This document shows positions 15,772 through 46,506 of a stretch of DNA of 64,000 nucleotides, one piece after another. The number at the start of each line of letters is the position of its first letter. Position 1 is the first letter of the stretch. Under the pieces are notes generated by a model. That model ran no database searches and was not told where the DNA came from. It was given only the letters and a program-made list of their open reading frames with translations. The stretch comes from Tetraselmis striata (lineage: Eukaryota; Chlorophyta; Chlorodendrophyceae; Chlorodendrales; Chlorodendraceae). Both the position numbers and the translations under genes were made by a program. Location of the stretch: the NCBI GenBank assembly GCA_006384855.1, contig VCJN01001792.1:1-64000 (forward strand), in the 5' to 3' direction.

Positions 15772-16553
15772 GGCCAGTGAGATTTAATTGTCGGTTTTAG
15801 GTCCCCCCCCCCTCCGATTTGCCCCCCCCCCTCCAGAAATTCTGTAGCTGGGTAATGCTCTATTTTAAAGTACTGTGCACCGTACTGCCAGCCCGCAAAC
15901 TGCGTTACAAGCGCCTGTGTGTTCAGTTTAGGGATGGCTTTCGCCCCGAGCCTGTGACTGTGTCCTCGTGCTCCACGCACACCATCGTCACTTGCTCCAC
16001 GAGATCAAAGAACAGCTCCGGGTCTATGTCCTTCGCCACATGCCGCATCAGCTCAGAGCAAGTGTGTGCTTGTAGCCAGTGCTCGTCAAAGACATGCAGC
16101 GCTGTCCGCCCACCGAGTAGCCTGCCATCCCAGGTCACGGCCACTTTCACAGTGCAGTTGGCGTTGCTTGCCAGCGTGCCGTTGGTACTAGCTCGACGAC
16201 GCGACCGCTTACGGACCCTACCTCCGGCGCTAGGAACTGGCACAGGTTGGTGTAATGGTGTTTCCTGCTCAGGGTTGCGCACCGGCAGATATGCATGCAG
16301 CTGTATGCAGCGGCGTGGAGGTGGCGGCGCGTACATACCCACACTACTCTGCGCGAGTGTGCGCACGACAACAGTTGGCCCTGTAACCATTAACATACGT
16401 ATTTACAATATTTGGCCCGGTTGCCTTACGGTTGAGGAAGTACTGCCAATGTACTGGCTACACAATTATCGGGGGGATGCTGAATAAATCCTCCCCCCCC
16501 TCCGATTTCGGCCAGAAAAGGACCCTAAAACCGACAATTAAATCTCACTGGCC
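15772..16553. mobile_element. PIF/Harbinger-like DNA transposon, probably non-autonomous
   Basis: The element is 782 bp and is bounded by inverted repeats of about 34 bp that start GGCCAGTGAGATTTAATTGT; the two ends differ by one base in the first 33 or so. The flanks are TTA on both sides (15769-15771 and 16554-16556). A 3-bp TTA/TAA duplication is the signature of PIF/Harbinger insertion. Just inside the repeats both ends have a C-rich tract next to tccgattt. There is no transposase. A 157-codon frame on the minus strand (15923-16396) lies in the middle. The element landed in a region of accagcagcgag minisatellite. Confidence 0.8.
15923..16396 (-). CDS. Unidentified ORF inside the Harbinger-like element
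   Basis: A 157-codon frame opens with ATG. It has a basic patch (Arg-Lys-Arg-Ser-Arg-Arg-Arg) near residue 75. The second half looks protein-like (Val-Thr-Trp-Asp-Gly-Arg-Leu-Leu-Gly-Gly, then a His-, Glu- and Asp-rich helical stretch). It is not a Harbinger transposase and I cannot confirm the Myb-like partner protein of such elements. It may be a captured fragment of a host or element gene. Confidence 0.3.
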   Translation of the reverse strand: MLMVTGPTVVVRTLAQSSVGMYAPPPPRRCIQLHAYLPVRNPEQETPLHQPVPVPSAGGRVRKRSRRRASTNGTLASNANCTVKVAVTWDGRLLGGRTALHVFDEHWLQAHTCSELMRHVAKDIDPELFFDLVEQVTMVCVEHEDTVTGSGRKPSLN

Positions 16554-16898: not shown

Positions 16899-17894
16899 TT
16901 CCTATCCCTCTCAGAAAATCAAAGCAGGCGTCTCAAAGGTTGAGATGAAATCGGGCAGGGTACTTGCGGGCAAGTTCACGGCGACGTGGGCTGCAAAACA
17001 GAGGAGACAAGGTGGCATTGGAAAACGATACGATAGTACTAAGCGCCTCCAGTGGCCGACTCCACGGCCGCTGCCGCGGTGGCGGCTGATGCCGCCGACG
17101 ACGCTGACGCTGACGCCGTCGGCAGGTGTGCGGTGAGCATAGACAATGAGCATATCAACATTTCTGAGGTTGCAATAGGGCTCCCAAGAGTTGTGCAGAG
17201 AGTCATAGCCTAACCATTGCACAAGGAACACAAGGGCTGGGCCGCGAGCATAATGATCGGGGTCATGTTCAGTTATGTGATCAAGGATGTTCTCAACAAT
17301 GAAATCATCTTGCGGGGGGATAAGTCAACCAAGAACACATCCAAGGGGGTATCAGGCGAGTAGCAGTGGCATAACTTGGAAATGTGAAACACAGGGTGAC
17401 ACTCCGTGGTCGAGGGCATTCGAATGCAGTATGCCTGGGAGGATATTTTTTGGACGGTCGAAAACGGGCCGAGGAATCGCTGGCGGAGTTATGGAACAGG
17501 TTGGTTGCGTAATAACAAATTATATCGATGGACAACCAAATTTCATCGCCCTTGTTAAATTCTTCATGTCGGGATCGGCGATTAGCCGAAGCAATTTGGT
17601 ACGCATCAGCGAGTTTTTATTTTTCGGATATCATGGCATGGGTGTTACGCATTTGTTGGGCAATGTCGACATTAACACAATCCAAGGGTTGGGATAGTAA
17701 GGCAACATGACCAAGGGGGCACATGCCATACCGAGCCTCAAAGGGTGAGCGTTTTATAGCGGAATGGTAATTATTGTTGTAGGAACACTCAGCGAGGGAC
17801 AGGTTATTGAGCCAGTCGTGATGGTTTTGGTGTACATAAGAGCGTAAAATTTGCTCAATAGTGCGGTGCGTGCGTTCGGTTTGCACGTAGGTCT

Positions 17895-17929
<35 letters not shown>

Positions 17930-18640
17930 GACGAGCTAATATTCAGTTTGGTGTTGAGCGGAATTTTTTTTTTCCAAAACGCAGAGGTGAAGCGGGGATC
18001 GCGATCGGAAAGAATTGTACGACATAAGCCATGGTGTCGAAAAATGTTGTTAATGAAAACCGAGCGGGTTGGGGGGGCGTCAATGTCAAGACTACATGGG
18101 ATGAAGTGGGCTTGCTTAGTAAAGTTGCAAACACATGTGGCAATTGTATCAAAGCCATTTGTAGACGCAAGCCAGTTATAAAATCCATCGAAATTACTTC
18201 CCAAGGGCGGGAAACCTTAAAGGAGTGGTGACAGGGAGCCTATCGGTTTTTGGGTCGAGTTCTTAATGCGTTGGCAGGTTGGGCAAATTTTGTAGTACGG
18301 CGAACAGTATTGCGTATGCTTGGCCACCAAAAGGCGCGGGAAATATTGACGAGTGTGCGTTCGAAATCGGGGTGACCGGCGGCATCGTAGAACTCGCCGA
18401 TAATCAGATTTAATAGTGTATCGTCAGTGGGGAGGCAAATTTTATCGGCCATCCAATAAAGCTCATCAGTGGAATCAAAGCGAGCTCCATTTGGCAAGCA
18501 GGATCCCGCATAGGGGGGTCGAATTTGGAATCATATTTAATGCGGGTAACGAGAGCAGGGTCCGCTTGCAAGTGGCACATGGTGGATAAGAAATCCTGCT
18601 GCTCGGAGGCTAAAGGCGAGTCATCCATGCGCACGGTAAG
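16899..18640 (-). pseudogene. pol: Ty3/gypsy chromovirus: integrase and chromodomain part
   Basis: This is the 3' part of a retrotransposon pol gene on the minus strand, broken by stops and frameshifts. In order it shows the zinc-binding N-terminal region of integrase (about 18497-18240, with His-Pro-Asp-Phe-Glu-Arg-Thr), the catalytic core (18204-17617, with Asp-Arg-Asp-Pro-Arg-Phe-Thr and then Thr-Glu-Arg-Thr-His-Arg-Thr), and a chromodomain (17231-17127, with Val-Gln-Trp-Leu-Gly-Tyr and Asn-Ser-Trp-Glu-Pro). Chromodomains at this position define chromoviruses. A 30-base G run at about 17899-17928 has replaced conserved residues in the core. Its upstream RNase H part lies at 29513-30364, across the MULE-1 insertion. 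Confidence 0.85.
17899..17928. repeat. Homopolymer G tract inside integrase
   Basis: A run of about 30 G on the + strand interrupts the integrase core just before its Thr-Glu-Arg motif, where conserved residues should be. It shows that the long C/G runs of this window can arise in coding DNA once selection is lost. Confidence 0.8.
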
Positions 18641-18739
18641 ACCTGTGGAATACACGGGATGTGTGTGTGTGTGGGGGGGGGGGAATGGGCATGGTGGTTC
18701 ATGAATTAACACTCTTGCATTCTATCTGCCCCGCCACAG

Positions 18740-18997
18740 GTTCCAACAAAGGACGACGCAGGACCCAGTACCTCTAGGGCTGCGCGAAGTATTTTTGCGC
18801 CCGTGGCAGTGCGCCCCACAAACACCCCGCGTGCTGTTATTGGGTAGTCTGGGATGCGTTCTGTCCTCCTTCGGAACGGAATGGCGGGAACCGAACACAA
18901 ATATCGTCGTGTCAACCTTGTGCGACAGGTACCCCCACCCGACGAGGCAGGCCCGAGTACCTCTAGGGCCGCAACATTTGGACTGCCGGATGTGGCA
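18740..18997 (+). repeat. Tandem pair of 69-bp phase-0 exons
   Basis: Exons 18740-18808 and 18929-18997 are both 69 bp, both preceded by CAG, both followed by GT, and both in phase 0. Each encodes 23 residues sharing the core Asp-(Asp/Glu)-Ala-Gly-Pro-Ser-Thr-Ser-Arg-Ala-Ala. The unit length, exon plus intron, is 189 bp, close to the 190-bp unit of the larger array downstream. Confidence 0.65.
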
Positions 18998-21900
18998 GTA
19001 CGCCCCCCCCCCCCCTCCCGCCTTTACTTAGTTGTCTCTGTATCGTCAGGCATGGAGTGGTAATTGCTTCATGTCCCGGCCGGCGAATTACTTTGCGCGT
19101 GAAACTGACACAAAACATTGCCGCGTAGGCAGTCAACCCCATCCACCGAGACCCGGCGAAAGGCAAAGGACCAGCTAACCCACTACCATCTAACCCACAG
19201 GTGGAGAAAGGCAAGGCCAAAATGCTGTCGCCTATTCCCGAGGAACTTCACAGCGCATTTCCGCCAAAGACTGAGGAAGAGGTTGAAAACGATTGGCTCA
19301 CCGAGCGCGCCAACAACAAAGTTCATTTGAGAAAAATAGAGCACCAGAAGTACGTCCAACTTGCCATTCAAGAGTGGCAAGACGCAGGGGAACACAGAGG
19401 TTACCTCGAGGACTACATGGTAACCGCAAACGTGGGGAAACAACTTGCCGAGGAAGCAGAGGCGGAGTACTCGCGCCTCGTGAACAGAGGGGCTCGGCTG
19501 ATGCAGGTTACCACCCATGCCTTGCCCACCTGTGTTCCCAACCTGATGGTTTCCAGTATGACCTCGTAGGTAAGACTTGCATGGACTGCTGCGTACTAAA
19601 GACCCCTTCTCCGGTTTACCAGAAACGATTACACCCTTCGTGGGCAGTCGAGGACAGCGCGGAGCCCTCTGTACAACAACCGGATGAGGGCGTAGCCGGA
19701 CCTGGGCACGAGGACAGATCGCCTGAGCCGCGTGCCTCGCAATCGACTGTGACCAACTCTTCCGCACGCGGTGTGTCTGTTTCTCAAGACTCGTTGTACG
19801 ACGCTACCCAACCCGGATATCACCCCAGTTCGGACGGGGGGGTTTCGGAAGATGACGAGCCGGCTCCGCCAATGGCACCTGCGTCCCCGGCTATCGAGCT
19901 TCTCGACTCACCCACGCCTGAGGTACTGCCTTGCTTTGGCCCTCTTGCAAGCGTGAGCCTTAAACTTCTTTAATTTCTTGTCCGCAAGTACTTATGCGGT
20001 GCCCCGTGTTGCCCAGCCTGGCCGACCACCTCTGCAAGTTGATCCTCGTCTACGCCGCGGCTGGGACCCCAATTACGAGAACTTCGACGACTGGTTCTCG
20101 GTATGGCCCGAGCCTGAGTCGTTGTACGGCGAGGATTACGCCGACTTGCACCATGCGATGTGGAAGTGGCTCCGAGATTGGGAGTTCGATAAATTTGACA
20201 TCCAGTATCAGTACGCCTTCCTGGAGGGTTTCCTGCGCTTATGCCCGCCTCCGCCTGGCGTGGAATTTCGTTTCTGTCGTGCGAGCATGGACTACTCAAG
20301 GCGAGGCTTTCCGAATTTTGTGTCTAGGCATGAGTCGTCATGTGGCCGCCGAGACCCGGCCCCCGAAGGCGTACTTGTTTTTTGGTTCCACATAACGTAT
20401 CCCTGGGGTTCGAGGGCATGGGAGCGGCCAGAGTCGTTGCCGTTTCCCAAGTCCACTGAAGCGGGCGGGCACTTCGCAATCGCGGTATGGACAACTCGTG
20501 ACGGGCGTGCAGTTGCGCCGGTTTTCCTATATGACAGCTTGTATCGTGTCCCATCGGGTGGTGTACCTGTCGACCAGCGCCAATACGTTGGTTTCGAGAA
20601 TGCCTTGTGGGAGATTCTGCGCACCAGAGACACGGCACGGATGCCCGCTGTCCTTCGTGGTCGTGTCAGCCAACAAGATGGTACATATGCGAACTCGTGC
20701 TGCATGCGCGCTGGACTTGGAGGTCGCGCGTTCGTGTTCGTCGTGTGCCGAGAGTTCTGGCGCGCCCGCGTTGCACGGGCCTTCGATAGGCCGCCGCCGC
20801 TTCGTGTCGAGATCGCCGACTTGCGGCGATTCGCGTTGGTGTGGATGCCTTGGTTCATGGTGACTGGTCTGGGCCTGACGCCCTTCGAGGGCCCGGTGAG
20901 GAGGGGGAAGATGAGTTTTCTACGTTGCCTCATCGACGGCGTTCCGTGGGACGTGTTCCCGCCGGGAGTGGGCATGTCGTGGTGGAGCGCTGAGCAGATC
21001 TCCCGGAGCCTGGACTTGGCGCGCACGAAGTTCACGGCTAGTCAAGGTCCTTGGCGGTGGGCATATGTGGTGCCGAAACGGGACAACCCTCATGCCAGGC
21101 AGATGCTTCAGAACGCACCCCCGAACAACGTCACGTGGAATAACATCACGTGGTCCCGAGCCGTGGACGCCGTTGTTATGGTCGAGTGTGACGGCGTCGA
21201 CGGAATCGCGCGCCACACAGGGCACAATATCCGCCTGTTCCGGGACTTGCAGAGGCTGCCTCCGCGTGCTGGTCGCTGGACGCCCGCGCAGCTTATGCAA
21301 GCCCGCATACTCCGCTGCGCGACGTGCTTGGGCAACGCCGACCCCAGACCCAACCACCCGGCAGGGGATGTCCCTCATTTCGACGAAGCGGTGGTGGAGC
21401 ACCTCTGGCAGCCCGTCTTGCTTCCAGTGCAACCACCCCGATCACCAACGCCTCCTCGACTTGAACAGGTGTGTTTACAACTCGACACGCATCTATTCGC
21501 GTGCACCTTTGTTGCTGCTGCGCACCACTTACTTTTACGGCATGCTAATTTACTCGCCATCGCACGTTGCCCCCCCCCCCCCGCCCCCCCCCCCCCCAAA
21601 CAGACCCCGAGCGCGGGAGCTAGTCCGAGCGGCGCACCCCCTCCCGTGTTTGCTGCCGAGCCGAAGCCCGCATCGACAGTGGCGCCGGCTGTCGGCAAGG
21701 TGGGATGCCCGCGCTGCACCTTTTGTTGCCGCTGCGCACGAGTTACTTTTACGGCATGCTAATTAACTCGCCATCGCACGTTGCCCCCCGCAGACCCCGA
21801 GCGCAGGAGCTGGTCCGAGCCGCGCACCCCCTCCCGTGCTTGCTGCCGAGCCGAAGCCCGCATCGACAGTGGCGCCGGCTGTCGGCAAGGTGAGATGCCC

Positions 21901-24900
21901 GCGCTGCACCTTTTGTTGCCGCTGCGCACGAGTTACTTTTACGGCATGCTAATTTACTCGCCATCGCACGTTCCCCCGCAGACCCCGAGCGCAGGAGCTG
22001 CTCCGAGCGGCGCACCCCCTCCCGTGCTTGCTGCCGAGCCGCAGCCCGCATGGACAGTGGCGCCGGCTGTCGCCAAGGTGAGATGCCCGCGCTGCACCTT
22101 TTGTTGCCGCTGCGCACGAGTTACTTTTACGGCATGCTAATTTACTCGCCATCGCACGTTGCCCCCCGCAGACCCCGAGCGCAGGAGCTGCTCCGAGCGA
22201 CGCACCCCCTCCCGTGCTTGCTGCCGAGCCGAAGCCCGCATCGACAGTGGCGCCGGCTGTCGGCAAGGTGAGATGCCCGCGCTGCACCTTTTGTTGCCGC
22301 TGCTCACGAGTTACTTTTACGGCATGCTAATTTACTCGCCATCGCACGTTGCCCCCCGCAGACCCCGAGCGCAGGAGCTGGTCCGAGCGGTGCACCCCCT
22401 CCCGTGCTTGCTGCCGAGCCGAAGCCCGCATCGACAGTGGCGCCGGCTGTCGGCAAGGTGAGATGCCCGCGCTGCACCTTTTGTTGCCGCTGCGCACGAG
22501 TTACTTTTACGGCATGCTAATTTACTCGCCATCGCACGTTGCCCCCCGCAGACCCCGAGCGCAGGAGCTGCTCCGAGCGGCGCACCCCCTCCCGTGCTTG
22601 CTGCCGAGCCGAAGCCCGCATCGACAGTGGCGCCGGCTGTCGGCAAGGTGAGATGCCCGCGCTGCACCTTTAGTTGCCGCTGCGCACGAGTTACTTTTAC
22701 GGCATGCTAATTTACTCGCCATCGCACGTTGCCCCCCGCAGACCCCGAGCGCAGCAGCTGCTCCGAGCGACGCACCCCCGCCCGTGCTTGCTGCCGAGCC
22801 GAAGCCCGCATCGACAGTGGCGCCGGCTCTCGCCAAGGTGAGATGCCCGCGCTGCACCTTTTGTTGCCGCTGCGCACGAGTTACTTTTACGGCATGCTAA
22901 TTTACTCGCCATCGCACGTTGCCCCCCGCAGACCCCGAGCGCATGAGCTGCTCCGAGCGGCGCACCCCCTCCCGTGCTTGCTGCCGAGCCGCAGCCCGCA
23001 TGGATAGTGGCGCCGGCTGTCGGCAAGGTGAGATGCCCGCGCTGCACCTTTTGTTGCCGCTGCGCACGAGTTACTTTTACGGCATGCTAATTTACTCGCC
23101 ATCGCACGTTGCCCCCCGCAGACCCCGAGCGCAGGAGCTGCTCCGATACACATCTGACGCACCCCCTCCCGTGCTTGCTGCCGAGCCGAAGCCCGCATCG
23201 ACAGTGGCGCCGGCTGTCGGCAAGGTGAGATGCCCGCGCTGCACCTTTTGTTGCCGCTGCTCACGAGTTACTTTTACGGCATGCTAATTTACTCGCCATC
23301 GCACGTTCCCCCCCGCAGACCCCGAGCGCAGGAGCTGGTCCGAGCGGCGCACCCCCTCCCGTGCTTGCTGCCGAGCCGAAGCCCGCATCGACAGTGGCGC
23401 CGGCTGTCGCCAAGGTGAGATGCCCGCGCTGCACCTTTTGTTGCCGCTGCGCACGAGTTACTTTTACGGCATGCTAATTTACTAGCCATCGCACGTTGAC
23501 CCCGCAGACCCCGAGCGCAAAGGCTGCCCCGAGCGACGCACCCCGTCGCCCGAAACAGAGCAAAACTGCAGAGATGCTCGCCAAACTTACACAACAAAAG
23601 GTGTGTACGTGATTTGTGCCGTTGCCCGTCACTCAGCATTTAAAGCTGTATGTAAGACTTCCGCGCTTTGTCAGGGCATGAAGGGTGGGCAGAGGCAACC
23701 GTGCAAGCTTAACCCGGCATTTGTGAGCGCTCGGACTACATCACGTCGTCTCGCTACTTCAGCCAACGAGGACGCTGAGGACGACTTTCAGCCTCGGCCG
23801 AAGCGTAAGGCGTCTCAACCTATACAGGACCCGCCGGCGCGGAGCCTTCGAGCCCGTGGGACCCGCATGGCGGGTGACACGCCGTCGGTGCGCACTTCTT
23901 CGCATGTCCCTCGGCCCGCCGGGGGTTCTTCCGATCTGCATACAAGCTTACCGGCTCCTCCGCGTTGGGGCCAAAAAGGAGCACGCAGCCGTCCCCAGGG
24001 TGAGCGTCTCCTGCCTAGGGCACAGGCGACGGCGGGTAAACCCAGGACCGCGGCAAAGCCGGGTACAGCCGAAGCGGCTGCGACACACACAATTGGGCTT
24101 GCGAGTGCGTCGACTGTGCGGGCGCCGACGCCAACAGGAGCCGAGGACTCGCGGTTTCCATTCAGGGCAGCCAACCTCGTCGCGCGACACAATACTACTC
24201 CTCGGTTGTCTGTTTCAACTGCTAACCGTCGAGACCTCGTCGACCCCAGGTGTCGTGTCAGATCGGCTACTCAGGGTGCCAAGACAGCGCCGCCCAGGCA
24301 AGAACCTTTCCTGCAGCGCGCTGTGGGGAACGCCGATTTTTTAGCTAGGAAGCAACTCAGCTTCGTAGTCGAGGAAGAACTCGGCACGAAGATGGCGACG
24401 TTGCAGACTCACTTGCTGCTCACTTGCCCCGACTTCTTCCTCGCCGGCGAGAGGAGTCCTCTCATTCGAATTGGTGACCGGAGCCAGATGCTCATGCACC
24501 TTTCAGGCGAGCCCCCCCCCCCCCCCCCCCCCGCCCCCCCCCTCCCCCCCAACGTGGTCCCACTCCAATAATACATGCAGGTAAATTCCTCAGTCGATTG
24601 TTGACCGTCATTGATTTCAGGGCCTGAAGACCCCCGCTGCCAAGTGCCGAATTCCCTAGAGGAGTCGCTGCGCATTGTTCTGCTAGATACGGAAGATGGC
24701 CTACATCTCTACAGGGAACTCCAACACGTCTTCAACGAGATCATACAGAAGGCTCAATCTTTCCTCCAAATCGGTGAGTCGATGATGCCCGCCACGCAGT
24801 CGTTGGTTTTCGTGCCCTCCGGCGCGGACATCGGCCTGCCCGCTGTCAGCGCCCACCGAGGCACAATCGTGTTGCTCTTCTACTGGGGATGCTGTAGCCC

Positions 24901-26576
24901 TCTTCATCTCGTGCGTCACGGAGCGGACATTAGTCTCGAGGACGCGATGGCGTGGGTGTCTCCGACGTTGGTGAGACCCCCCCCCCCACACACACACACA
25001 CACTCGCTCATTCGGCTCGGAATGATTGTAATCCAAGCAGCGGTCGGTTGCTTAGAAGGATGTACACGGCGCAGGTTGCGCAAGCCGCGGCATCGGGCCT
25101 GGGCCTGGAAGAGTTTCTGCGGAGGTATTGGCCTCGCGTGCTCGGAAACGCGAGGGTAGGCGGAAACCTCTGCGAGGACCGCCCGGCTGCTGCGAGGGCT
25201 ATGGCGCCGTGGGGGGCGGTAGACGCGGACTACGTTCATGCGTGCGGTGGCAGCCGCTTGCGAGCCTCGCATTCGATGCCCGGCCTGGTTGTCGCGCTTG
25301 CGGGAGAACGCGTGGTTCGGGAGCCAGCCTTCAAGTCGGTGCCAATTACTGGTTGCGAGTCCTGCCGAGGAAACAAAGCCGCGGGGTACCTTTACGGCTA
25401 CGTTTGTCTCACCCCTGAGACCGGAGTGCCTGCACCGCCTCCGGATTGGCAACTAACCCCGCCGACGATGGTTTTCAATCCTGACCTCTTCCCGGACACT
25501 TACAGCAACAGCACATACAAGAGGCACCAGTTGCAGATTCCTCGTCTGATCGAAGTCTGCCGTCAGTACGGGCGCCTTGACCCTGCCGCGCTGTTCGTTG
25601 ACAACCCGTTAATCGCTGCGGATATCAGGCAATACCTTGACGACGAGTGCGGCTCACCGCCGCCAGAGGAGAAGTTCCCGACATCCGAAGAAGATTTCGC
25701 CCACCTGTCCCCTCTCGCCCCCCCCCGCCCTAGGTGATGTCCGCCGCCCACTTTGCACTATAATTAGCCCCCCCCCCCCCCCCCTCCACCACCACCATGT
25801 CTCCATACCGTGTAAACACAACTCTTCTGGTATGTAGCCAACCACCACCTCGCCAATTGTGCAGGTCTCAGTGTGTCACGGCACCTGGCCTTGGCAGCAC
25901 TCGGGAACAATTCTACGCGCGACTGGCGTGGGGAATGCCAGGGGAGTGGACCCAAGGCCATATTACTCGAGCTTTCTCCGTATTCACGTCGCTACGTAAG
26001 CAAAAAATACCTCCCATTATACCGACTGCCCCATGGGAGTATGACGTGATCAAGACGAGCGTTGCGAGTTTTAAAGGCTCGGTGATTTGGGACCCCTGCG
26101 CCGGGACGGGAGGTACAGAAATTGCGTTTCGAAGCATTGCCAAACGAATTTGGTTGAGTGATGTGATCGACTATGGCTGCGCAGACTTTGTCGCCGACGC
26201 GCTTTTACCTGAAACACATGACAGCGTAAGGTTGCGAGCAAACCCCTCGCCGTATATAATTGTCACGTCGCCGTGGTTCAGCATGCTGGACATGTTTGTA
26301 CCGGTGGCACTGGCGTCGAGCGCCACGCTGCTCTGCGTGCAAGTCCCGCACACGTATCTGTCACAGGGCCCAAAGCCCAGGTTGGAGTTCTTCGCGTCTC
26401 TGGCAGGGCAGAAACGCCTATGTATTCTATACTCATCACGAGACAGAAACCCGGCAACAAACATGCGCGCTATGTGGCTTGTGATATGTAAGGGAGGCGT
26501 TGCAATCGACAATTACATAACGGAGGTCGCGTTATCGCAAAGGATCCCCTTGCTGATAGAGCCAGTGCGCGCATAG
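18740..26576 (+). CDS. Ulp1-like peptidase / tandem-exon / methyltransferase-like fusion gene
   Basis: Phase-compatible exons are 18740-18808, 18929-18997, 19201-19506, 19623-19922, 20017-21468, ten 32-codon repeat exons (21604-23414), 23508-23600, 23675-24506 (GC donor), 24621-24970, 25075-25733 and 25865-26576, about 1,930 aa. The first exon was not found. The 484-codon exon has the layout of a C48/Ulp1 cysteine peptidase: Gly-Gly-His-Phe (His 20470-20472), Tyr-Asp-Ser-Leu (Asp 20533-20535), then Gln-Gln-Asp-Gly...Asn-Ser-Cys-Cys (20671-20703). Next come the Ala/Pro-rich repeats, a basic disordered region, and an unknown domain with Cys-Glu-Ser-Cys. The last exon has Asp-Pro-Cys-Ala-Gly-Thr-Gly-Gly and Thr-Ser-Pro-Trp-Phe, typical of an N6-adenine-type methyltransferase. 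Repeat exon 9 contains a stop that may be an assembly fault. Two or more separate genes remain possible. Confidence 0.6.
21604..23600 (+). repeat. Tandem array of 190-bp exon-intron units
   Basis: Ten units repeat an exon of 96 bp and an intron of about 94 bp. Exons start at 21604, 21794, 21982, 22172, 22362, 22552, 22742, 22932, 23122 and 23319; a diverged 93-bp exon follows at 23508. Each exon begins ACCCCGAGCGCA after cccgcag and ends (G/C)CAAG before gtgagatgcc. The intron has a likely branch point in gcatgctaattta. Each exon adds 32 residues (Thr-Pro-Ser-Ala-Gly-Ala...Pro-Ala-Val-Gly-Lys), rich in Ala and Pro, in phase 0. Exon 9 is 103 bp because of an odd insertion. Copies differ by only a few bases, so the array is recent or being homogenised. 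Confidence 0.9.
23122..23224 (+). other. Aberrant repeat exon 9 with insertion and stop
   Basis: Where sister units read ctccgagcgacgcacc, this one reads ctccgatacacatctgacgcacc, a net gain of 7 bases. It shifts the frame and gives a TGA within the exon. The bases atacacatctgacgc (23146-23160) equal part of the Nextera sequencing adapter, although gacgc also occurs naturally in sister units. An assembly artefact is therefore a serious possibility. Confidence 0.7.
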
Positions 26577-26602
26577 AATCGACAGTGAGGCCAGATGTAA
26601 CT

Positions 26603-29211
26603 CTACTTTGTCGCTAGCGTTGCCTTGCCTCGAAGAGTCTCCGCCAAGGACATGTCGAGTTCAGCCGCACCGTCACTACCACTGTCTGCCTCGGAATGGG
26701 GGGAAGTTCTGGGGGTTGCGACTTGGTCGCAAGCGGGATCGTAGCTCGGCAGCTTTAGCGGCCTCTTCGGCGGTCGTTCTTTCCGGCGTGGCTTCCTAGA
26801 CCATAAGATGTCAGGGCTGGAAGCAGGTTGGACACCGAATTCGGCATCCAGCTCGGCCATGAGTCGACGACGCTCTTCATCCGGAGAGACGGCGGCAACT
26901 ACCGTACTGATTGGGACTTGAGGCCTCCTTTTATTGACGGGGTTGTCGCGGTCACGTGGCGCGGCCTTCGACACGCAAGGGATGGGCCGCGCGCGCTTGC
27001 GGGACTGTTGGCCCCTTGCGTGTCCTGCGGGCGTACTCTGCTCAAGCTGCCGAGGCGCATCGTCGTGCGCCGCGACTGGTTTAGCGCCGGCTTTTCGAGG
27101 TCGGCCGCGCTTGCGGGGTTGCAGCCCGCTACTCTTCTCCGGTGGGGGTCCCTGAAGTCCGTCGACGGGCCCGGCAACGCCCTTGGCCGTTGTAGCTGCC
27201 GAAGGTACATTGGGGCGGTCGCGCCTGAGTGCCATTTGGCCCCTACCAAGCCCCGCCGGCGATACGCTCAGGTCCGGGCATCCCATGGGAACCGAGGGTG
27301 CAACATGCTTGCGGGGTCGCCCGCGCTTGCGGGGCTCCAGCCCGTCGCATGCGCCTGTGTCCTCCCCGGGGACAGCTGAATCTTGTGTTTGCTGAAGATC
27401 GGCCACACGTTCTGTGACAAGCGTGGTAACTGACGGTGTCGCCGGGGGGATGCGCGCCGGGGGCTGACGCGGTTGACGCGCAGTCGCGACAATGCCCGAA
27501 CGACCTGCGCCTCGTCCTCGCCCTGGAGCCCTGCCTCGTCCACGCCTCCCACCTCCCCCTCGTCCCCGGGCACGCATGCGCCCTGCGCCGTCTGGTGGTT
27601 GGACCTGCAAAGCTGGGACGCCGTGCGCAGCTCGGTGCGGCGGGTTCTGGCCCGCCATGCCTACGACGTCCTGCTCGAAACGCAGGCGAACATCCGTATC
27701 GTGAAGTGGTGGTGGTAGCAGGTAACAGCCTGCGGCGGCGGTTATAACACACGTTCAAGCAAATCATTTGGTCCGGCCCGATTCCAACTTATAGACAAAG
27801 AGATAGACGGGCGTCACCTTGGCCGCGGGGAACATCGTCCTAATTGCCAAAACCACTCCAGAGCCCTTGTCGGAGACAACAGCAGAAGGGTCGAGGGCGA
27901 CGCCAAAAAGCTCGCGACAGGTTGTCGAGAGACCCCGAAAGAGTGTCAGAAAGGCAGGCGCAGTCTCAGAGCGAGCGAAGCAAAACGCAATTGGCAAGAA
28001 CGTGTTGACGAGTTTCCGTTTGAAGCTGGATTTTCTGATCGTAGTCGTGCCGACTGTCAGGAGGACCCACTTGTTGAACGACACCTTGTGCGTGCCGTCA
28101 GTCATAAGGTGCAAGGGCAGCCCTGAAAGCAAAGCCATCCGAAGGGTGGTCAAGAGCTCGAGTGAAGAAAACGCCACAGCACTCGACTCCTCATCCACTC
28201 CGTCTCGGAGCACAACCAAGTCAGTTTCTGTCACTCTATCCAACGCAGTCCCGGATGGCAATGCCTTTGACTCGGCCCACTCGCGCAGATCGTGAAAAGA
28301 TGTGAGCTGAAACGCTCCTTTGCCGAGCTTGATCAAATACTTTTTCCACCGCCGTAGCTGAGTTAGGAGCTGGGGCCGCATGCCATCCAAGACTCCGGCA
28401 GCGCGTATGGTCGAGCGTGGTACATGCTCCAACGCATTCTTTGGCGACATTCCCCGAAGCAGGAGCGGCTGCAATATGCCCCGAAGCGACTGAGGTACAC
28501 CCTCCCCACCACGGATCTCGACAAGTGTAGTCGTGTGAACATCGTTGCTGAACTGCAACTCCCACTTGCCGGTTTGCTTGTTGACAACCGCGCGCATCCG
28601 GGCCGGGCAGGCTACATGCTGCCGGCACTGGTACACCTGTAAACATACAGAGTTCCGTTGGTTCGACCGCAGGTGACTGCTACCTGCACGCGGAAATTAC
28701 GTGACGAGGGGCAGCATACCTTTGTAGCCGCCGAGGCATACAAAAATCGCCATTTAGTAGGGAGGCCTGAGATCACAGACTTGACCGCTATGTAGTCGGC
28801 ATATTCAGCGTGGCCGTCTTCGGCAGGAAGCCAGTGACTACCGATATGGTGAGGTTGTACCTCATCCTCAGCCGGGGTGGGCCGTGGGGCGCCTGCAACT
28901 GCCGTGTCGGAACGCCTAGCGCTGCCTTGCATGCCGGGGCTGCCTGCGGCACCCTCTTTAGACGCCACTACTTCGGCCAAAGACGCAGTGGGGCGCTGGG
29001 CACCCCCCCTTAACGACTCTTCCAAGGTCGCAACATCACGCAATGCTGCCCCACGCGAGGAGACGGGCCGGCCAACGGCAGACCCGATACAACTTGTTGC
29101 CATCTCGAGAAGAACTTCCCTACTCATCAGTCCCTCATTTTCTGCAAGGAGTTCCCGCACCTCCCCGAGTGCGGCGCGAAGTTCGTGTATAGCCCGCAAG
29201 GGGGAACCCAT
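26603..29211 (-). CDS. MULE-type transposase with FLYWCH-like finger and AT-hooks
   Basis: Proposed exons are 29211-28720, 28636-27818 and a third ending at 26603; the third may start at 27670, but that junction is unclear. The N-terminal part is variable. Across the first junction lies a FLYWCH/FAR1-like zinc region (Trp-Arg-Phe-Leu-Tyr...Tyr-Gln-Cys-Arg-Gln-His-Val-Ala-Cys-Pro-Ala). Then comes a DDE-like core: Thr-Asp-Gly-Thr-His-Lys (Asp 28097-28099), Ala-Arg-Ser-Glu, and Val-Ser-Asp-Lys-Gly-Ser (Asp 27869-27871) before Phe-Pro-Ala-Ala-Lys. The C-terminal 350 residues are basic, with an Arg/Gly tract and two AT-hooks (Pro-Arg-Lys-Arg-Gly-Arg-Pro-Arg-Lys). I did not find the third catalytic acid, so it may be defective or mis-spliced in my model. 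Confidence 0.6.
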
Positions 29212-29512
29212 ACTGACCCCGCAGCCCTACTTCCTACTTGTTTCAGCGAGAACTGTTAGGCAGGTGTGTGAAACGGATAACTGCCCCGACTTCGCGGCAA
29301 CCTACCTACCTACCTACCTTCGGAGAACCTGCCTCGACCCGCCGCCTTTGGGTCGTTCCGCCGCCACCAAATGATCATGTACTTTGTGCCAGTACACGCG
29401 AACCCTAAAAACCTGCCCAGGGTTTAAAGCTAGTAAATTGTCCCATTTTCAGTGAGTCATAAGTGAAGTATAGTGGCCTCTACCGTTTACGCTAGTATCT
29501 TGTCCCATTCCC
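28651..29512. repeat. Right-end repeat, copy A (MULE-1)
   Basis: This segment matches 32321-33174 along nearly its whole length with scattered substitutions and small indels. It holds the first exon of the transposase, a cctacctacctacc microsatellite, and the right terminal repeat of the element. Confidence 0.9.
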
Positions 29513-30364
29513 GTGTTCGAGGTCGTTGTCGAGCAATTGTTGGTCCATCGTTGTTAAGTTAAGCGCAGATCGGGGCGACGAGACAGTAGGGCATCGGCCT
29601 CATTTTGAGATCCTCTGCGGTACAGAATGTCAAGCACTAGTTAATCAGTGCGGGGGTGTTTGGTCAAGTATGGGGAGATAGTGTGTAACCACAGTGTGTG
29701 GCGGCGGCCTAACGCCGGTTGGGTAGGGAGGTGACGAAGAGTGGCATGATCAGTAATAACAGTGATTTTGGAACTGCCCTGCTCTATGTAACAGCGCCAT
29801 TCATCTAGCGCACAAACAACACCAGTTCCTGATCATAAGCGGGATATCGGGTGTGGGTTTCCTGGAGCACCTTGGCAAAATAGGCACAAGGGCGAAGGTC
29901 GCCATCAGAGTCTTTCCGCAAGAGCACAGCGCCAAGGGGGTACTTGGACGCATGGTGGATATAACAAATTCGGAGTCGGGGCCGGTTCGCGGGGACATGA
30001 GCACTACTAGAGCGGAGCAGAGGGCTTGTTTAAGAGCATTGAACGCAACATGTTCACGCTCACCCCATACAAACTTTTCGGTATTTATTATTCTGCATAT
30101 ATGTCGCAAAGTGGGGCAGCCATATGGAAATATTTGCGTACATGCCGTCGGTAGAAGTTGCAAAAGCCTAAAAATTGTTGTATTGGTTGTACCGTGAGCG
30201 GCGGGGCCCAGTCTCTAATAGCCTTAAGTCTTTTGTTAGAGGGACGGGAGCCGGAGCGGCTAACCATATGACCTAAGTATTAGAGTTCGTTTCGGGGAAA
30301 AATCACTTAGGCGGTCGAAGACGAATATCATGTGCTGCCAAGAGGCTGAGCATGGTGTCTAGGT
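29513..30364 (-). pseudogene. pol: Ty3/gypsy pol: end of reverse transcriptase and RNase H
   Basis: This is a middle fragment of the chromovirus pol gene. It contains the Phe-Val-Trp-Gly...Ala-Phe-Asn-Ala-Leu-Lys segment at the RT/RNase H border, a Thr-Asp-His-Ala-Thr-Leu-Arg-His-Leu motif, and Asn-Glu-Ala-Asp-Ala-Leu-Leu-Ser-Arg-Arg-Pro-Asp near its end. Frameshifts and stops interrupt it. It is flanked by the MULE-1 right end and the MULE-2 left end, which both inserted into this retroelement. Confidence 0.85.
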
Positions 30365-30374
30365 GCCGTAAATG
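30365..30374. repeat. Target-site duplication of MULE-2, left copy
   Basis: GCCGTAAATG is repeated exactly at 33175-33184, directly outside both terminal repeats. A 9-11 bp duplication is typical of MULE insertion. Confidence 0.85.
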
Positions 30375-31458
30375 AGAAAAGCGCAATATTATAGCGTAAA
30401 CGGTAGAGGCCACTATACTTCACTTTTGACTCACTGAAAATGGGACAATTTACTAGCTCACGCGCCAAACAATGTACTACAGACATACATATACAGCGCA
30501 AAGTACTGTACTCGCCGTCGCCGCCGCCATCCCTTATCCCGCCCACTCGAGTGGAGGGGGGGCTGCGCAGTACTACTAGTCGCTACTAGTATACCTTTCC
30601 ACCACCGCCAAGGCTGCCCAGAACCCAAACCGGGCCGTGGCAGACAGTTTGCGACTATTCATAGGAAAGGATCCCACGCGACACAGGCATGCAGGGTCTT
30701 AACTTACACAAAAAGGCGCGAACGCCCGGATCCGTGACATGAATGGACTCCGTCTACCTTCGGCGTAGGTCTGCACGGCTAGTGAGTAGGCAGCTATAGA
30801 GACTTGCAGCTCACGCTATCGGTTACTGCCATGCAGGCTGGGGTAGGTCCCATCGCGATGGAGGTGCCTAGCAACCCCCCCCCCCCCCCCCGCTTCCCCC
30901 CCGCACGCGGCCACCCTCTCGAGAGTCTGCCAGCCGGTCCGCCCGACCCGCTCGACCAAGGGCTGCGTCTGCTCGACGTGCCCCCACCCAACGCTCTCGT
31001 CGCGTGGCGGCCCTTGCCGTTGGACCTAGCCGGGCCGATACGCAGTCAGTGGCGGGTCAAGAGCAGGGCCCGCCAGCGGCAGACATGTCGCCGAGCTTGG
31101 CTGTCGCTGGCGATGCGGGCGAGGGCTGGCCTACGCATAGCGATAGCCAGGCTGGGGAGAGCGGCGGGCAGGGAGCCGGCGCGTCGGCAGCCACACCCTG
31201 TGGACTTGCGCTAGCATTAGGCGGGGGTGGGGGCGTGCCGGATGCCAGCGGTTCGGAGGCTGATAAAGGCGCGACAACCACCATGCTCACGGTAAGAGCT
31301 GTGGAATAGGCGGGATGGAGGACGGGGGGCGGGGGGGGGGGGGGGGTGGGGGGGGGAGGTTGTGGCCGTGCTGTGATGTAATGCTGTGGTAGTGTGGTGC
31401 ACCTTTGCATTTTTATACGGCTTGCTAATTATGTCGCCATTACACGTTCGACTGACAG

Positions 31459-32320
31459 CCCCCGACTCCAAAAACTAGCACGAGCAACGCACTCCCTGCC
31501 CCCGCTGCCGACGAGTTGCAGCCGGCCTCAAAAGACGCAACGCCAGTCGCCGAGGTGGGCGGCCTTGCTGCGATGTAAAGTTGCTGTCCTGGGCTTCTGT
31601 TGTTTTCGGCTTGCTAATTATGTCGCCATCGCGCGTTCGACCCACAGCCCCCGATTGCAAAGCACGAGCGACGCACCCCCTTGCCTTGCTGCCGACGAGT
31701 CGCAGCCGGCCTCAAATGAAGCGACGCCAGTCGCCACGGTGGGCGGCCTTGCTTCGATGTAAGGCTATGCTAGGCTGTTTTAGTTTTCGACTGGCTAATT
31801 ATGTCGCCATCGCACGTTCCACCCACAGCCCCTGAGTGCAAAACGTGGCACAAGCGACGCACCCCCTTCGCCTTGCTGCCGACGAGTCGCCGCCGGGTCG
31901 CATGCGCCACCAGTCGCAAGGGTGGGCGGCTTTGCTGCGATGTAAGGTTAAGCTAGGCTTTTGCAGTTTCCGGCTTGCTAATTATTATGCCGCCATCGCA
32001 CGTTCCACCGATAGCCCCCGAGTCCCAAACCTTGCACGAGCGACGCATCCCCTCGCCCGATGCTGACGAGTCGCAGCCGCCCTCAAAAGAAGCGACACAC
32101 GTCGCCAAGGTGGTCGGCCTTGCTGCGACATAATGTTGTTGTCCACCTTTGCATTTTTATGGCTTGCTACTTATGTCGCCATCGCGCGTTCAACCTACCC
32201 ACATCCCCCCGACTCCTAGCTGCACGAGCGACGTACCCCCTCGCCTTGCTGCCGCATAGTCGCAACCGGCCTCAAAAGAAGCGACGCCAGCCGCAAGGTG
32301 GGCGGCCTTGCTGCAATGTA
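31459..32320 (+). repeat. Decayed second exon-intron array (about 180-bp units)
   Basis: About five units recur, with exon starts near 31459, 31648, 31829, 32015 and 32207. The first exon (31459-31554) is intact: 96 bp, phase 0, 32 codons ending Pro-Val-Ala-Glu before gtgggcgg. Its Pro-Ala-Ser and Ala-Ala-Asp/Glu core aligns with the MULE-1 repeat. The introns keep the ggcttgctaatta branch-point region and tcgccatcgcgcgtt, also seen in MULE-1. Unit 2 has lost 5 bases and others have further shifts, so the array no longer codes. Confidence 0.75.
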
Positions 32321-33174
32321 TCCGTTGGTTCAACCGCAGGTGACTGCTACCTGCACGCGGAAATTGTTTGAGGAGGGGCATCATACCTTTGTAGCCGCCG
32401 AGGCATACAAGAACCGCCAATTAGTAGAGAGGCCTGAGATTACCGACTTGACCGCTTTGTAGTCGGCATATTCAGTGTGGCCGTCTTCGGCAGGAAGCCA
32501 GTGACCGATACGGTGTGGCTGTACCTCAGCCCCAGCCGGGGTGGGCCGTGTGGCCCCTGCAACTGCCGTGTCGGAACGCTTAGCGCTGCCTTGCATACCG
32601 GGGCTGCCTGCGGCACCCTCTTCAGACGCCACTACTTCGGCCAAAGACGCAGGGGGGCGCTGGCCACCCCCCCTTAACGACTCTTCCAAGGTCGCAACAT
32701 CACGCAAGGCTGCCCCACGCGAGGAGACGGGCATACCCGACGGCAAACCCGATACAACTTGTTGCCATCTCGAGAACTTCCCTACTCAACATTCCCTCAT
32801 GATCTTGAATGAGTTCCCGCACCTCCCCAAGTGCAGCGCGAAGTTCGTGTATAGCCCGCAATGGGGAACCCATACTGACCCCGCAGCCCTACTTCCTACT
32901 TGTTTCAGCGAGAACTGTTAGACAGGTGTGGGAGGCGGAGAACAGCCTCGACTTCGCGGCAACCTACCTACCTACCTACCTTCGGAGAACCTGCCTCGAC
33001 CCGCCGCCTTTGCCTCGTTCCGCCGCCACCAAGTGATCATGTACTTTGTGCCAGTACACGCGAACCCTAAAAACCTGCACAGGGTTTAAAGCTAGTAAAT
33101 TACCCCATTTTCAGTGAGTCATAAGTGAAGTATAGTGGCCTCTACCGTTTACGCTATAATCTTGTCCCATTCCC
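32321..33174. repeat. Right-end repeat, copy B (MULE-2)
   Basis: This is the counterpart of 28651-29512. It begins abruptly after the last array unit, which marks the deletion point inside MULE-2. The transposase first-exon frame survives in part on the minus strand (32746-32381). Confidence 0.88.
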
Positions 33175-44844: not shown

Positions 44845-46506
44845 TCATGAAGGAGGCACTGGGAAGGCCACCGCTGCGGAGTCCTGTTGGACTTGGAAGT
44901 GGCGGAGAGGGGCGATGTGTCCAAAGAAGAACCACGCGCCAGGAGAAGGAAGAACGTTGGGGTCGATGTAGTCCAGAACGACATCAGAGTTAGTGGCCCA
45001 ACCGCCCTGGTAGCGGATGTGGGACAGTGGCGCTCCAATGGCGTTTGCTGCAGAGGCTGCGCCCTTGCGTAGACTGTGTGAAGTCCAGGAAGTGCCAGCA
45101 GGGGGGGCAGCGTTGACTAGGTTGACTGCTGTAGACAACCAGTCTGACATCGTAGTAGCAGTCCAAGGTTTCGACTGCTCAGCCACATTGACAGCCCAGA
45201 AGTTGGAGGTAGCCAAGCCAACAGTAACCAGGGGGACAGACTGGACGTTGTCGATGAAGTAGCGCAAGAGACGTGCCACTCGAGGGTGCTCGGACACTGG
45301 AAGGAGAAGTACGCGCAGGTCGTCAGGTCCCCGCCGGCCGGCGCGACCCTTCTCGCGGTAGATCTGCAAGGTGATGTTGTAGGTGTCGACATGCACATCT
45401 TGCACTCGACAGGAGACGCCAGTAAGGCCCCTGGCAAAGAACAGGAAGTTGACAACCGAGGCCAAGAGGGCTCGGTAGTCGAGGTGGGACTCTGGGTAAG
45501 GAGCAGACACAATTAGCTCGGCCTTTGAGACGAAGCGGTAAGCTACATCCGCAGGCAGAGGGACACGCAAAGGGGCAGCGTCCAGTCGACGCTGACGTAA
45601 CATTAACCCACGTCTTGCCGAAGTGAGGTGTAGGCTGTCCTTGGCGATCGGGACGAGGTTGTGCAGCTCGAAGAAGGTGTTGATGGCAGACAGATAGGGC
45701 TGCAGCGACTTAGCTGCGATATGCCCTCGCTCCCCGATCCAGGCAACGTACCGAACAACAGTAGCAGTAGTCGCCTCTAGCGGGCTGATGTTCTCGGAGT
45801 CGTGGCAGAACTCAGCGAACTGAGCCAACCTGCCGGCGTAGCTCTTGAGGGTCTGAGCGCTGAGGGAGCTGGAGAGCAGGTCGAGCGTCCGCTGGCCTAG
45901 CTCGTCTGAGCCGAACGCGTCATGTAGTCGGGATCGCAGTGACGCAGCCCACGGAGCGATAGCTGCGGGCTCGTCGATTACGTAAGTGCGTCGTTTTACT
46001 GACAGAGTGCCACCGGGACGGCTACTGTTCGCAAAGTACTCGGCAGCAGCGGTTAGGTTCCCGGCGGTTGGCCGGTAGTTGCTGGACGGGTTTGCAGTAG
46101 CTCCAGTACGGGTTTGCGGGGCTAGGTTCAGGTAGGAGGGCCGCCCCGCGCGCCCTTCGCGCTCATAGCGCCTGTCCCGTGCGTAACGTACACGCGCGAA
46201 ACTTGGTCGTTGCGAACCGGTTGTAACTCGTAGTGTAACAACCGACGAACGCAGAGATGGGGTTGTAAGAAAGGCGGATGGTTGAGCCGCCATGTGCATG
46301 TGTGCGGATGGTTGAGCCGCACTCGGCTGTAGCTGTAAGAAGCGCCGCACCGAGGAAGGTCTAAATGAAGTCTGTAAGGTGGGGGGGTCAGGTCCTGACA
46401 CAGGGCGCTCATCCCGTCGTTGAGCTGCAAGGGTGCGCCTTGCGGCGGTCACCGAAAGGTGGCCTCGCAAGGCTCCTGCAGCTCCGACGAACGGCGCCCC
46501 ACACCG
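44845..46506 (-). CDS. Tyrosine recombinase (DIRS/PAT type)
   Basis: This enzyme would integrate the circular DNA copy of the element by breaking and rejoining DNA through a tyrosine. The frame is open from just after the gag stop (46507-46509) and has no ATG until 46299, so it is probably made as a gag readthrough fusion. Residues at the start are basic and disordered. A core-binding SAM-like region (Gln-Thr-Leu-Lys-Ser-Tyr...Phe-Ala-Glu-Phe-Cys) precedes the catalytic domain: an Arg region near Phe-Phe-Ala-Arg-Gly-Leu-Thr-Gly, then His-Ser-Leu-Arg-Lys-Gly (His-X2-Arg), Gly-Gly-Trp, and the likely nucleophile in Val-Leu-Asp-Tyr-Ile. The frame is intact. Confidence 0.85.
   Translation of the reverse strand, partial: RCGAPFVGAAGALRGHLSVTAARRTLAAQRRDERPVSGPDPPTLQTSFRPSSVRRFLQLQPSAAQPSAHMHMAAQPSAFLTTPSLRSSVVTLRVTTGSQRPSFARVRYARDRRYEREGRAGRPSYLNLAPQTRTGATANPSSNYRPTAGNLTAAAEYFANSSRPGGTLSVKRRTYVIDEPAAIAPWAASLRSRLHDAFGSDELGQRTLDLLSSSLSAQTLKSYAGRLAQFAEFCHDSENISPLEATTATVVRYVAWIGERGHIAAKSLQPYLSAINTFFELHNLVPIAKDSLHLTSARRGLMLRQRRLDAAPLRVPLPADVAYRFVSKAELIVSAPYPESHLDYRALLASVVNFLFFARGLTGVSCRVQDVHVDTYNITLQIYREKGRAGRRGPDDLRVLLLPVSEHPRVARLLRYFIDNVQSVPLVTVGLATSNFWAVNVAEQSKPWTATTMSDWLSTAVNLVNAAPPAGTSWTSHSLRKGAASAANAIGAPLSHIRYQGGWATNSDVVLDYIDPNVLPSPGAWFFFGHIAPLRHFQVQQDSAAVAFPVPPS

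Follow-up and report, generated by a model that had tools for sequence, protein, structure and literature searches.

A MULE-type transposon family of Tetraselmis striata with a predicted accessory gene joining peptidase-like, tandem-exon and methyltransferase-fold parts

Plant MULEs that carry Ulp1, namely Kaonashi/KIU and VANC, and Ulp1 in Mutator elements of hydra, lancelet, maize, rice and melon, are described in the relevant portions of PMC2836005 and PMC13317346. For Ectocarpus Sola1-1, the section of PMC12477816 on this element describes ParB-like and N4C/N6A methyltransferase domains on the strand opposite the transposase. KnitGypsy-Dnmt3, a DNMT-bearing Ty3/gypsy element of the green lineage, has a DNA methylase domain in its Pol polyprotein (PMC5890265, in the part on these elements).

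Comparison of copies shows a MULE-type family in T. striata whose predicted accessory gene lies tail to tail with the transposase gene, its exons joining peptidase-like, tandem, middle and class I methyltransferase-fold parts. Like the Ulp1-carrying MULEs as far as those sources describe them, it would encode an extra Ulp1-type product beside the transposase; unlike them, the Tetraselmis element has terminal inverted repeats and links its peptidase, assigned from the motif alone, to tandem exons and a domain of methyltransferase fold. As in Sola1-1, on the account in that section, the strand opposite to that of the transposase would encode a large accessory protein that includes an amino-methyltransferase-type domain, whereas the Tetraselmis element is a MULE rather than a Sola element and has peptidase-like and repeat regions; Pfam, at E values up to 5, matched no family in the accessory frames scanned outside the tandem exons, a ParB-like domain such as that of Sola1-1 included. 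Related gypsy Pol polyproteins resemble KnitGypsy-Dnmt3, on that partial account, as green-lineage Pol products that include a DNA methylase domain, and differ in that the Tetraselmis and metagenomic polyproteins have, behind a PHD finger, a Rossmann SPWF domain related to the exon studied here. The preliminary description had proposed a new kind of transposon cargo, which is too strong, as both Ulp1 in MULEs and algal methyltransferase accessory genes opposite the transposase are already published. A literature search of open papers found no report of a peptidase-methyltransferase fusion, or of a methyltransferase domain common to MULE and gypsy elements.

The window is the whole stretch of DNA analysed, 64,000 nucleotides in length. 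Exon positions without a stated basis below come from comparison of copies.

18601 to 29512, no strand: MULE-type DNA transposon (BLASTN against 10 copies; right end at 29512)
18881 to 18997, plus: exon with the ATG of annotated models P0006/P0007, putative 5' end
19129 to 19506, plus: exon (comparison of copies, annotated models)
19623 to 19922, plus: exon without visible constraint, pN/pS 1.16 (comparison of copies, annotated models)
20017 to 21468, plus: peptidase-like exon; His, Asp, Gln and Cys at exon residues 152, 173, 220 and 228
21604 to 23414, plus: ten tandem exons with an Ala/Pro-rich unit, 96 nt each and phase 0-0, bar one of 103 nt
23508 to 23600, plus: final, diverged array unit
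23675 to 24506, plus: middle region 1, ending in a GC splice donor
24621 to 24970, plus: middle region 2, under the tightest constraint (pN/pS 0.08)
25075 to 25733, plus: middle region 3, donor AG/GTGA, phase 2
25865 to 26576, plus: methyltransferase-like exon and stop, with WDPCAGTGG and TSPWF motifs (sequence matches)
26603 to 29222, minus: transposase gene, convergent with the accessory gene; MULE core 27767 to 28639
29428 to 29512, no strand: right terminal inverted repeat (inverted-repeat comparison and C2740 end)

BLASTN against copies shows the window element to be truncated on the left at 18601, with about 0.9 kb absent. Long terminal inverted repeats, as in MULE/Mutator elements, measured 75 to 92 nt in two comparisons: 29428-29519 pairs with 30367-30458 (92 nt, 87%), and the left end of C2740 matches 29502-29428 (98.7% over 75 nt). 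A 9-bp target-site duplication, also a MULE/Mutator character, flanks all three insertions with both ends visible, C860 (ATTCCGTTT), C2740 (GAGTACAGG) and the second window element (GCCGTAAAT), the first window element having lost its left end. The window transposase is broken, with about 760 bp absent at 27706 relative to copies. It matched PF10551 (MULE transposase) weakly (E 2.6e-4; 21.8 bits, below the cut-off of 27.6), two frames of a C2869 relative had no Pfam match in the same check, and a CxC...CxH pattern, spotted on visual inspection of a 634-aa frame present in C1476 and C2740, is what we take to be a SWIM motif. The 9-bp duplications in copies, the inverted ends and the weak opposite-strand transposase match support the reading of the accessory gene as transposon cargo.

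The exon at 20017-21468 was recovered as originally proposed, with His, Asp, Gln and Cys in C48 order. The order and spacing of these residues in Ulp1 provide the yardstick for a C48-like arrangement, and the spacing here (H-D 21, Q-C 6-8) conforms to it. We found H, YDS, Q and C invariant across three families that are 38% and 30% identical. The H-D-Q-C pattern, picked post hoc, occurred in 22, 24 and 40 per 20,000 shuffles and in one of the 105 window frames, namely this exon; slightly widened, it also matches PF02902 members L071-L073 of the genome. The suggestion of a Ulp1/C48 peptidase therefore stands as to order and spacing, by motif alone, and lacks a PF02902 profile match. That the region is instead another conserved transposable-element domain, matching the H-D-Q-C pattern by coincidence, is a sizeable if not leading possibility. 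PF02902 matched none of the proteins scanned with Pfam, including three peptidase rows that had no match to any Pfam family, and none of its 20 places in the genome coincides with a copy of the peptidase exon among the matches listed. Nor did a comparison of the HHpred type bear out the assignment, as hhalign against three PF02902 genome members gave no match (probability 0.2%; three rows per profile), and a single-sequence structure model reached a pLDDT of 37.7, too low for a papain-like fold to be read. Against coincidence stand the invariance of the residues across diverged families, their spacing, and the scarcity of the pattern, post hoc as its choice was. The peptidase profile had no match among PDB sequences, and none was found in viral contigs.

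The motif I-like and motif IV-like sequences noted earlier in the last exon are present as WDPCAGTGG and TSPWF, and the structure check on 25865-26576 gave a Rossmann methyltransferase fold. This supports a class I SAM-dependent methyltransferase fold for the predicted domain and does not support any target base. The canonical motif IV of N6A/N4C enzymes is (D/N/S)PP(Y/F/W); here it is replaced by SPWF, invariant in all 11 aligned members. PHROG 799, a DNA methyltransferase family, matched the window exon at E 2.2e-5 and three of 11 members. Among 10 methyltransferase members, Pfam gave one DUF6774 match at 0.23 and NCBIfam none, and profiles searched against PDB sequences gave weak matches near motif I only (best E 0.67 and 0.045). 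For the methyltransferase, viral contigs yielded one match of 37 residues near motif I, and the exon alone matched none of 375 candidates in a length-limited protein database search. A tblastn search of phage genomes gave no match.

Because the best fold matches are mainly rRNA methyltransferases, the substrate may be RNA. It is unlikely, in our estimate, that the domain acts on RNA or just binds SAM or nucleic acid, with a role in transposition or translation of the element and not in DNA marking. A DNA or chromatin context is indicated by the gypsy polyproteins, where RT, RNaseH, integrase and PHD precede this domain; the C5-methylase PF00145 is listed for all three metagenomic gypsy polyproteins.

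The association of the domain with its partners was counted within 16 kb for 73 MULE-type methyltransferase matches spanning at least 180 query residues (shorter rows excluded), using peptidase/transposase match lists of 101, the best 150 of more, and 137 rows; 20 long gypsy-type rows were tallied separately. Among the matches listed, the peptidase lay upstream in 51/73 and the transposase downstream in 54/73, with both partners in 37 and neither in five; the peptidase in six and the transposase in three were arranged otherwise, which counts against the model. In an unrooted tree in which long branches meet, a branch (100/99) splits four MULE rows from seven gypsy rows.

Our best overall explanation, which we place at about even, is that the family's accessory gene, tail to tail with the transposase, joins the peptidase-like region, variable tandem exons, three middle regions and methyltransferase fold, likely in one protein, that would serve to counter silencing or to mark the element. 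Its methyltransferase domain would methylate element DNA at an exocyclic amino group, either N6 of adenine or N4 of cytosine, the peptidase-like domain would strip SUMO-like modifiers off host factors assembled at the element, and the tandem exons would form an elastic, freely lengthening linker. If true, one transposon protein would combine an enzyme that marks DNA with a protease that removes modifiers, algal transposons writing 6mA or 4mC on their own DNA would have a testable case, and a methyltransferase domain would be common to DNA transposons and retrotransposons. We hold only tentatively, and with more doubt than conviction, a broader proposal: that the MULE and the C5-methylase-bearing Ty3/gypsy elements of algae, which belong to unrelated classes, share one SPWF amino-methyltransferase module, which the MULE lineage fused to a SUMO-type peptidase through a linker extensible exon by exon, giving a writer-plus-deconjugase whose non-5mC mark would allow escape from host silencing.

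Whether one gene spans these parts was judged from the window and 10 copies, 11 sequences of which seven have all exons; as retrieved, C860 and C2069 are internally deleted and C1701 and C1487 lack the 5' part. C2232, C407 and C1913, with 14-17 tandem exons, read through uninterrupted from the ATG to the stop codon and have splice-site dinucleotides at the borders of all exons, an openness that appears to exceed chance when set against the noncoding control. In a family at 39-41% identity, a single 610-aa frame (L043) covers middle region 1 together with the end of the peptidase, and a 799-aa open frame there recurs in 13 further places among the matches listed, one of which contains a TAG. 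The phase-2 intron preceding the methyltransferase exon is identical in three families. Counting against the model, just 11 of 19 distinct copies (24 rows less five repeats taken out by hand) have a C-run at the end of exon 25075-25733 whose length keeps the frame, C1476 reads open only when that exon is cut by length, C423 is frameshifted, and all seven annotated models matching the peptidase exon omit its catalytic core or stop earlier. A separate methyltransferase start at the nearest ATG, near 25798, was judged unlikely, since C1913 and C407 show gaps of 2 and 4 bases ahead of the exon's acceptor, which makes coding by that stretch unlikely. Two genes, the first holding peptidase and repeat and the second running from an ATG near 23678 through the middle regions and methyltransferase, are improbable: that ATG immediately follows the acceptor at 23675, P0006 stops at the donor after 23600 and middle regions 2 and 3 are more constrained than the peptidase, yet all seven aligned copies retain the donor and acceptor around 23600/23675, and L043 runs unbroken from peptidase end to middle region 1.

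A single gene with both domains and an expandable linker is thus well supported by copies and diverged families, and its product is likely one protein, as the preliminary description had it, except that the window copy itself has broken tandem exons. The phase-compatible junctions claimed from 18740 to the stop (26574-26576) are GT-AG with one GC-AG, at 24507, and hold apart from two broken array exons; the first exon at 18740 stays putative, as P0006 and P0007 begin at an ATG matching 18881, whereas alternative models splice in other 5' exons. Relative to a single noncoding baseline, 18601-18880 (pN/pS 1.18, gaps in five of six sequences), pN/pS was 0.40 for the methyltransferase (13 sequences), and 0.65 for the peptidase and 0.58, 0.08 and 0.21 for middle regions 1, 2 and 3 (seven sequences); the 1.16 of the 5' exon 19623-19922 counts against the model.

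The tandem-exon repeat was confirmed by Tandem Repeats Finder (period 190, 10.2 copies, 21601-23544). One window unit, 22932-23027, contains an in-frame TGA and another, 23122-23224, is the one of 103 nt, so that an open frame in the window copy requires these symmetric exons to be skipped; with all tandem exons omitted, it is open from peptidase to stop across 1,365 aa. Unit number varies from 7 to 28 per sequence by a pattern count in eight sequences, which may miss diverged units, and the C1487 array may exceed its retrieved stretch. Because nearly all units are phase 0-0, we propose that the linker tolerates their gain, loss and skipping, and the series of 7 to 28 units would offer natural material on exon duplication and skipping. 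The C2740 array includes one tandem exon of 97 nt and one of 95 nt.

The accessory gene of the MULE-type transposon at 18601..29512 lies on the plus strand, tail to tail with the transposase gene (26603..29222, minus strand), and its predicted exons in the window are as follows.

Predicted exons of the accessory gene
18881-18997, plus strand, exon
19129-19506, plus strand, exon
19623-19922, plus strand, exon
20017-21468, plus strand, peptidase-like exon
21604 to 23414, plus strand, ten tandem exons
23508-23600, plus strand, exon
23675-24506, plus strand, exon (middle region 1)
24621-24970, plus strand, exon (middle region 2)
25075-25733, plus strand, exon (middle region 3)
25865-26576, plus strand, methyltransferase-like exon

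The introns are GT-AG throughout, except for one GC-AG intron whose donor is kept in all 15 distinct copies aligned there and whose acceptor is lost in one of them (L009). The preliminary description had all splice junctions phase-compatible up to the stop; in the window, one tandem exon contains a TGA and another is 103 nt long, but some other copies bear the claim out. Among 11 sequences examined, seven of which have the complete exon set, C2232 (15 tandem exons, 2,116 aa ahead of the stop), C407 (14 tandem exons, 2,086 aa) and C1913 (17 tandem exons, 2,184 aa) read through without interruption. The frame of C2740 also stays open, with one 97-nt and one 95-nt tandem exon; that of C1476, which has a longer C-run, is open only with exon 25075-25733 cut by length; C423 is frameshifted. 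The tandem array is the variable part of the gene, with 7, 10, 12, 14, 15, 15, 17 and 28 units by pattern count in eight sequences, almost all of them 96 or 102 nt. The introns after 24506, 24970 and 25733 contain poly-C runs of very variable length among aligned copies, sitting close behind the first two of these donors.

We favour the prediction that the peptidase-like and methyltransferase-like parts belong to a single protein, because of the open frames in C2232, C407 and C1913, and because two features recur in diverged families. In the C2869-type family (about 40% identity), where no tandem array was found between the end of the peptidase and middle region 1, a single 610-aa frame at locus L043 runs through both; an apparent 799-aa open frame covers this stretch at 13 other C2869-type places among the matches listed, with a TAG in one. 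In addition, the window family, the C354/C2308 family (53%) and C2869 agree in the intron ahead of the methyltransferase exon, which is of phase 2 and of the form AG|GTGA...AG|G in each. Counting against one protein, just 11 of the 19 distinct copies keep the reading frame through the C-run closing exon 25075-25733, and all seven models of the JGI set Tetstr1 (TSEL) of Tetraselmis striata, a green alga, that match the peptidase exon (P0001-P0007, 88-98% identity over the aligned parts) leave out the peptidase core or stop before it. The predicted introns at the core differ in extent among these models, and its skipping is possibly an exitron or a prediction artefact.

Across the 224-Mb genome, in which the window is G000:C1447:1-64000, there are at least 168 matches to the methyltransferase exon, at least 137 to the transposase and at least 101 to the peptidase. 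Neighbours were sought within 16 kb of 73 MULE-type methyltransferase matches spanning at least 180 residues. Among the matches listed, 51/73 have a same-strand peptidase match upstream, 54/73 an opposite-strand transposase match downstream, 37/73 both and 5/73 neither; other arrangements comprise six peptidase and three transposase neighbours. None of 20 long gypsy-type methyltransferase matches has either neighbour among the matches listed.

Neighbours of MULE-type methyltransferase matches by identity group, among the matches listed
86-98%, n=23: peptidase 17, transposase 21, both 15
58-60%, n=2: peptidase 1, transposase 2, both 1
52-53%, n=6: peptidase 5, transposase 5, both 4
39-43%, n=28: peptidase 23, transposase 19, both 15
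mixed, more decayed remainder, n=14: peptidase 5, transposase 7, both 2

Pooled pairwise pN/pS was 0.40 in the methyltransferase exon (13 sequences) and, with seven sequences each, 0.65 in the peptidase exon and 0.58, 0.08 and 0.21 in middle regions 1, 2 and 3. It was 0.62 and 1.16 in two 5' exons, compared with 1.18 in a single noncoding control (six sequences). The peptidase exon, gap-free across its seven sequences, divides into a core (20206-20790) at 0.73 and a remainder at 0.49.

The peptidase claimed in the preliminary description is upheld at the level of its motif: three families share H152, D173 (in YDS), Q220 and C228 without exception, at C48-like spacing (H-D 21, Q-C 6-8), the D-Q distance of the third being unreliable as its row was read through a frame break. 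This pattern, picked after seeing it, occurs in one of 105 window frames, the peptidase-like one, and in 22, 24 and 40 of 20,000 shuffles per sequence. The genome has 20 matches to PF02902 (C48), and no listed copy of this region is among them; hhalign against PF02902 members gave a probability of 0.2%, and a single-sequence structure model was unsuccessful (pLDDT 37.7). For these reasons, and as the pattern is post hoc, we call the region C48-like by motif and do not assign it to C48.

The methyltransferase-like (SPWF) domain also occurs in gypsy elements. Within the "37%" group of matches, L061-L063 were read over this domain only and L045 in full; the latter is a single 1,646-aa frame with RT, RNaseH, H2C2, integrase and PHD followed by the SPWF domain.

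G000:C2631:132500-141500, minus strand, L045, Ty3/gypsy polyprotein with a PHD finger and an SPWF methyltransferase-like C-terminus

A protein database search returned three proteins, all metagenomic gypsy-type polyproteins (1,651, 2,145 and 2,022 aa), one of which, P0008, shares 34% identity with the window exon across 205 aa. PF00145 (C5-methylase) is among the precomputed domains of all three and matched in both scanned here (P0008, P0010); the L045 N-terminus resembles the end of a C5-methylase by eye, with Pfam silent there. In an unrooted tree one branch separates the four MULE rows from the gypsy rows, a split consistent with one transfer of the SPWF domain between MULE and gypsy elements. 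Six gypsy-type methyltransferase matches at about 4.01-kb spacing (G000:C2237:9832-30553, minus strand) look like a tandem array of a retrotransposon part.

In earlier work, Mutator elements carry Ulp1 domains proposed to help transposition (PMC2836005), VANC genes carry Ulp1 and related copies are hypomethylated (PMC13317346), C48 peptidases occur in Crypton (PMC3212892), C5-methylases in gypsy and other retrotransposons (PMC5890265) and methyltransferases in viral Mariners (PMC3627910); retrotransposon accessory domains are treated in PMC6338049. A peptidase and a methyltransferase within one transposon protein were not found in literature searches covering open-access papers. By analogy with VANC/KIU and with chromatin-linked gypsy proteins, we favour a role in which the accessory protein would act in anti-silencing or marking at element DNA; the main rival is that it would act on RNA instead.

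The window's copy belongs to a multi-copy family and is damaged: its transposase lacks about 760 bp present in C1476, C860 and C2740, and its left end is truncated at 18601, about 0.9 kb short of the end in complete copies. In BLASTN against 10 copies, the repeated unit spans 18601 to about 29512; complete copies start with GAGAAAAGCGC and finish with CTTGTCCC(A/G)TTCCC. PF10551 (MULE transposase) matches weakly, below cut-off, at 28639-27767 on the minus strand (E 2.6e-4). Duplications of 9 bp flank two copies with both ends, as well as a second, probably non-autonomous window element of 2.8 kb (30374-33174) with related ends, the duplication GCCGTAAAT and a short tandem array of its own (31418-31985; 3.1 units of 184 bp). 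Adjoining the cut left end, a minus-strand frame at 17617-18600 is gypsy-integrase-like by eye, with no Pfam recognition. The N-terminal exon joined to the accessory gene in model P0003 has a 79% match at 15908-16174 (minus strand), which here lies on the strand opposite the gene. A tyrosine recombinase at 44848-46506 (minus strand; Phage_int_SAM_1 6.3e-8, Phage_integrase below cut-off) belongs by eye to a DIRS-like or Crypton-like element.
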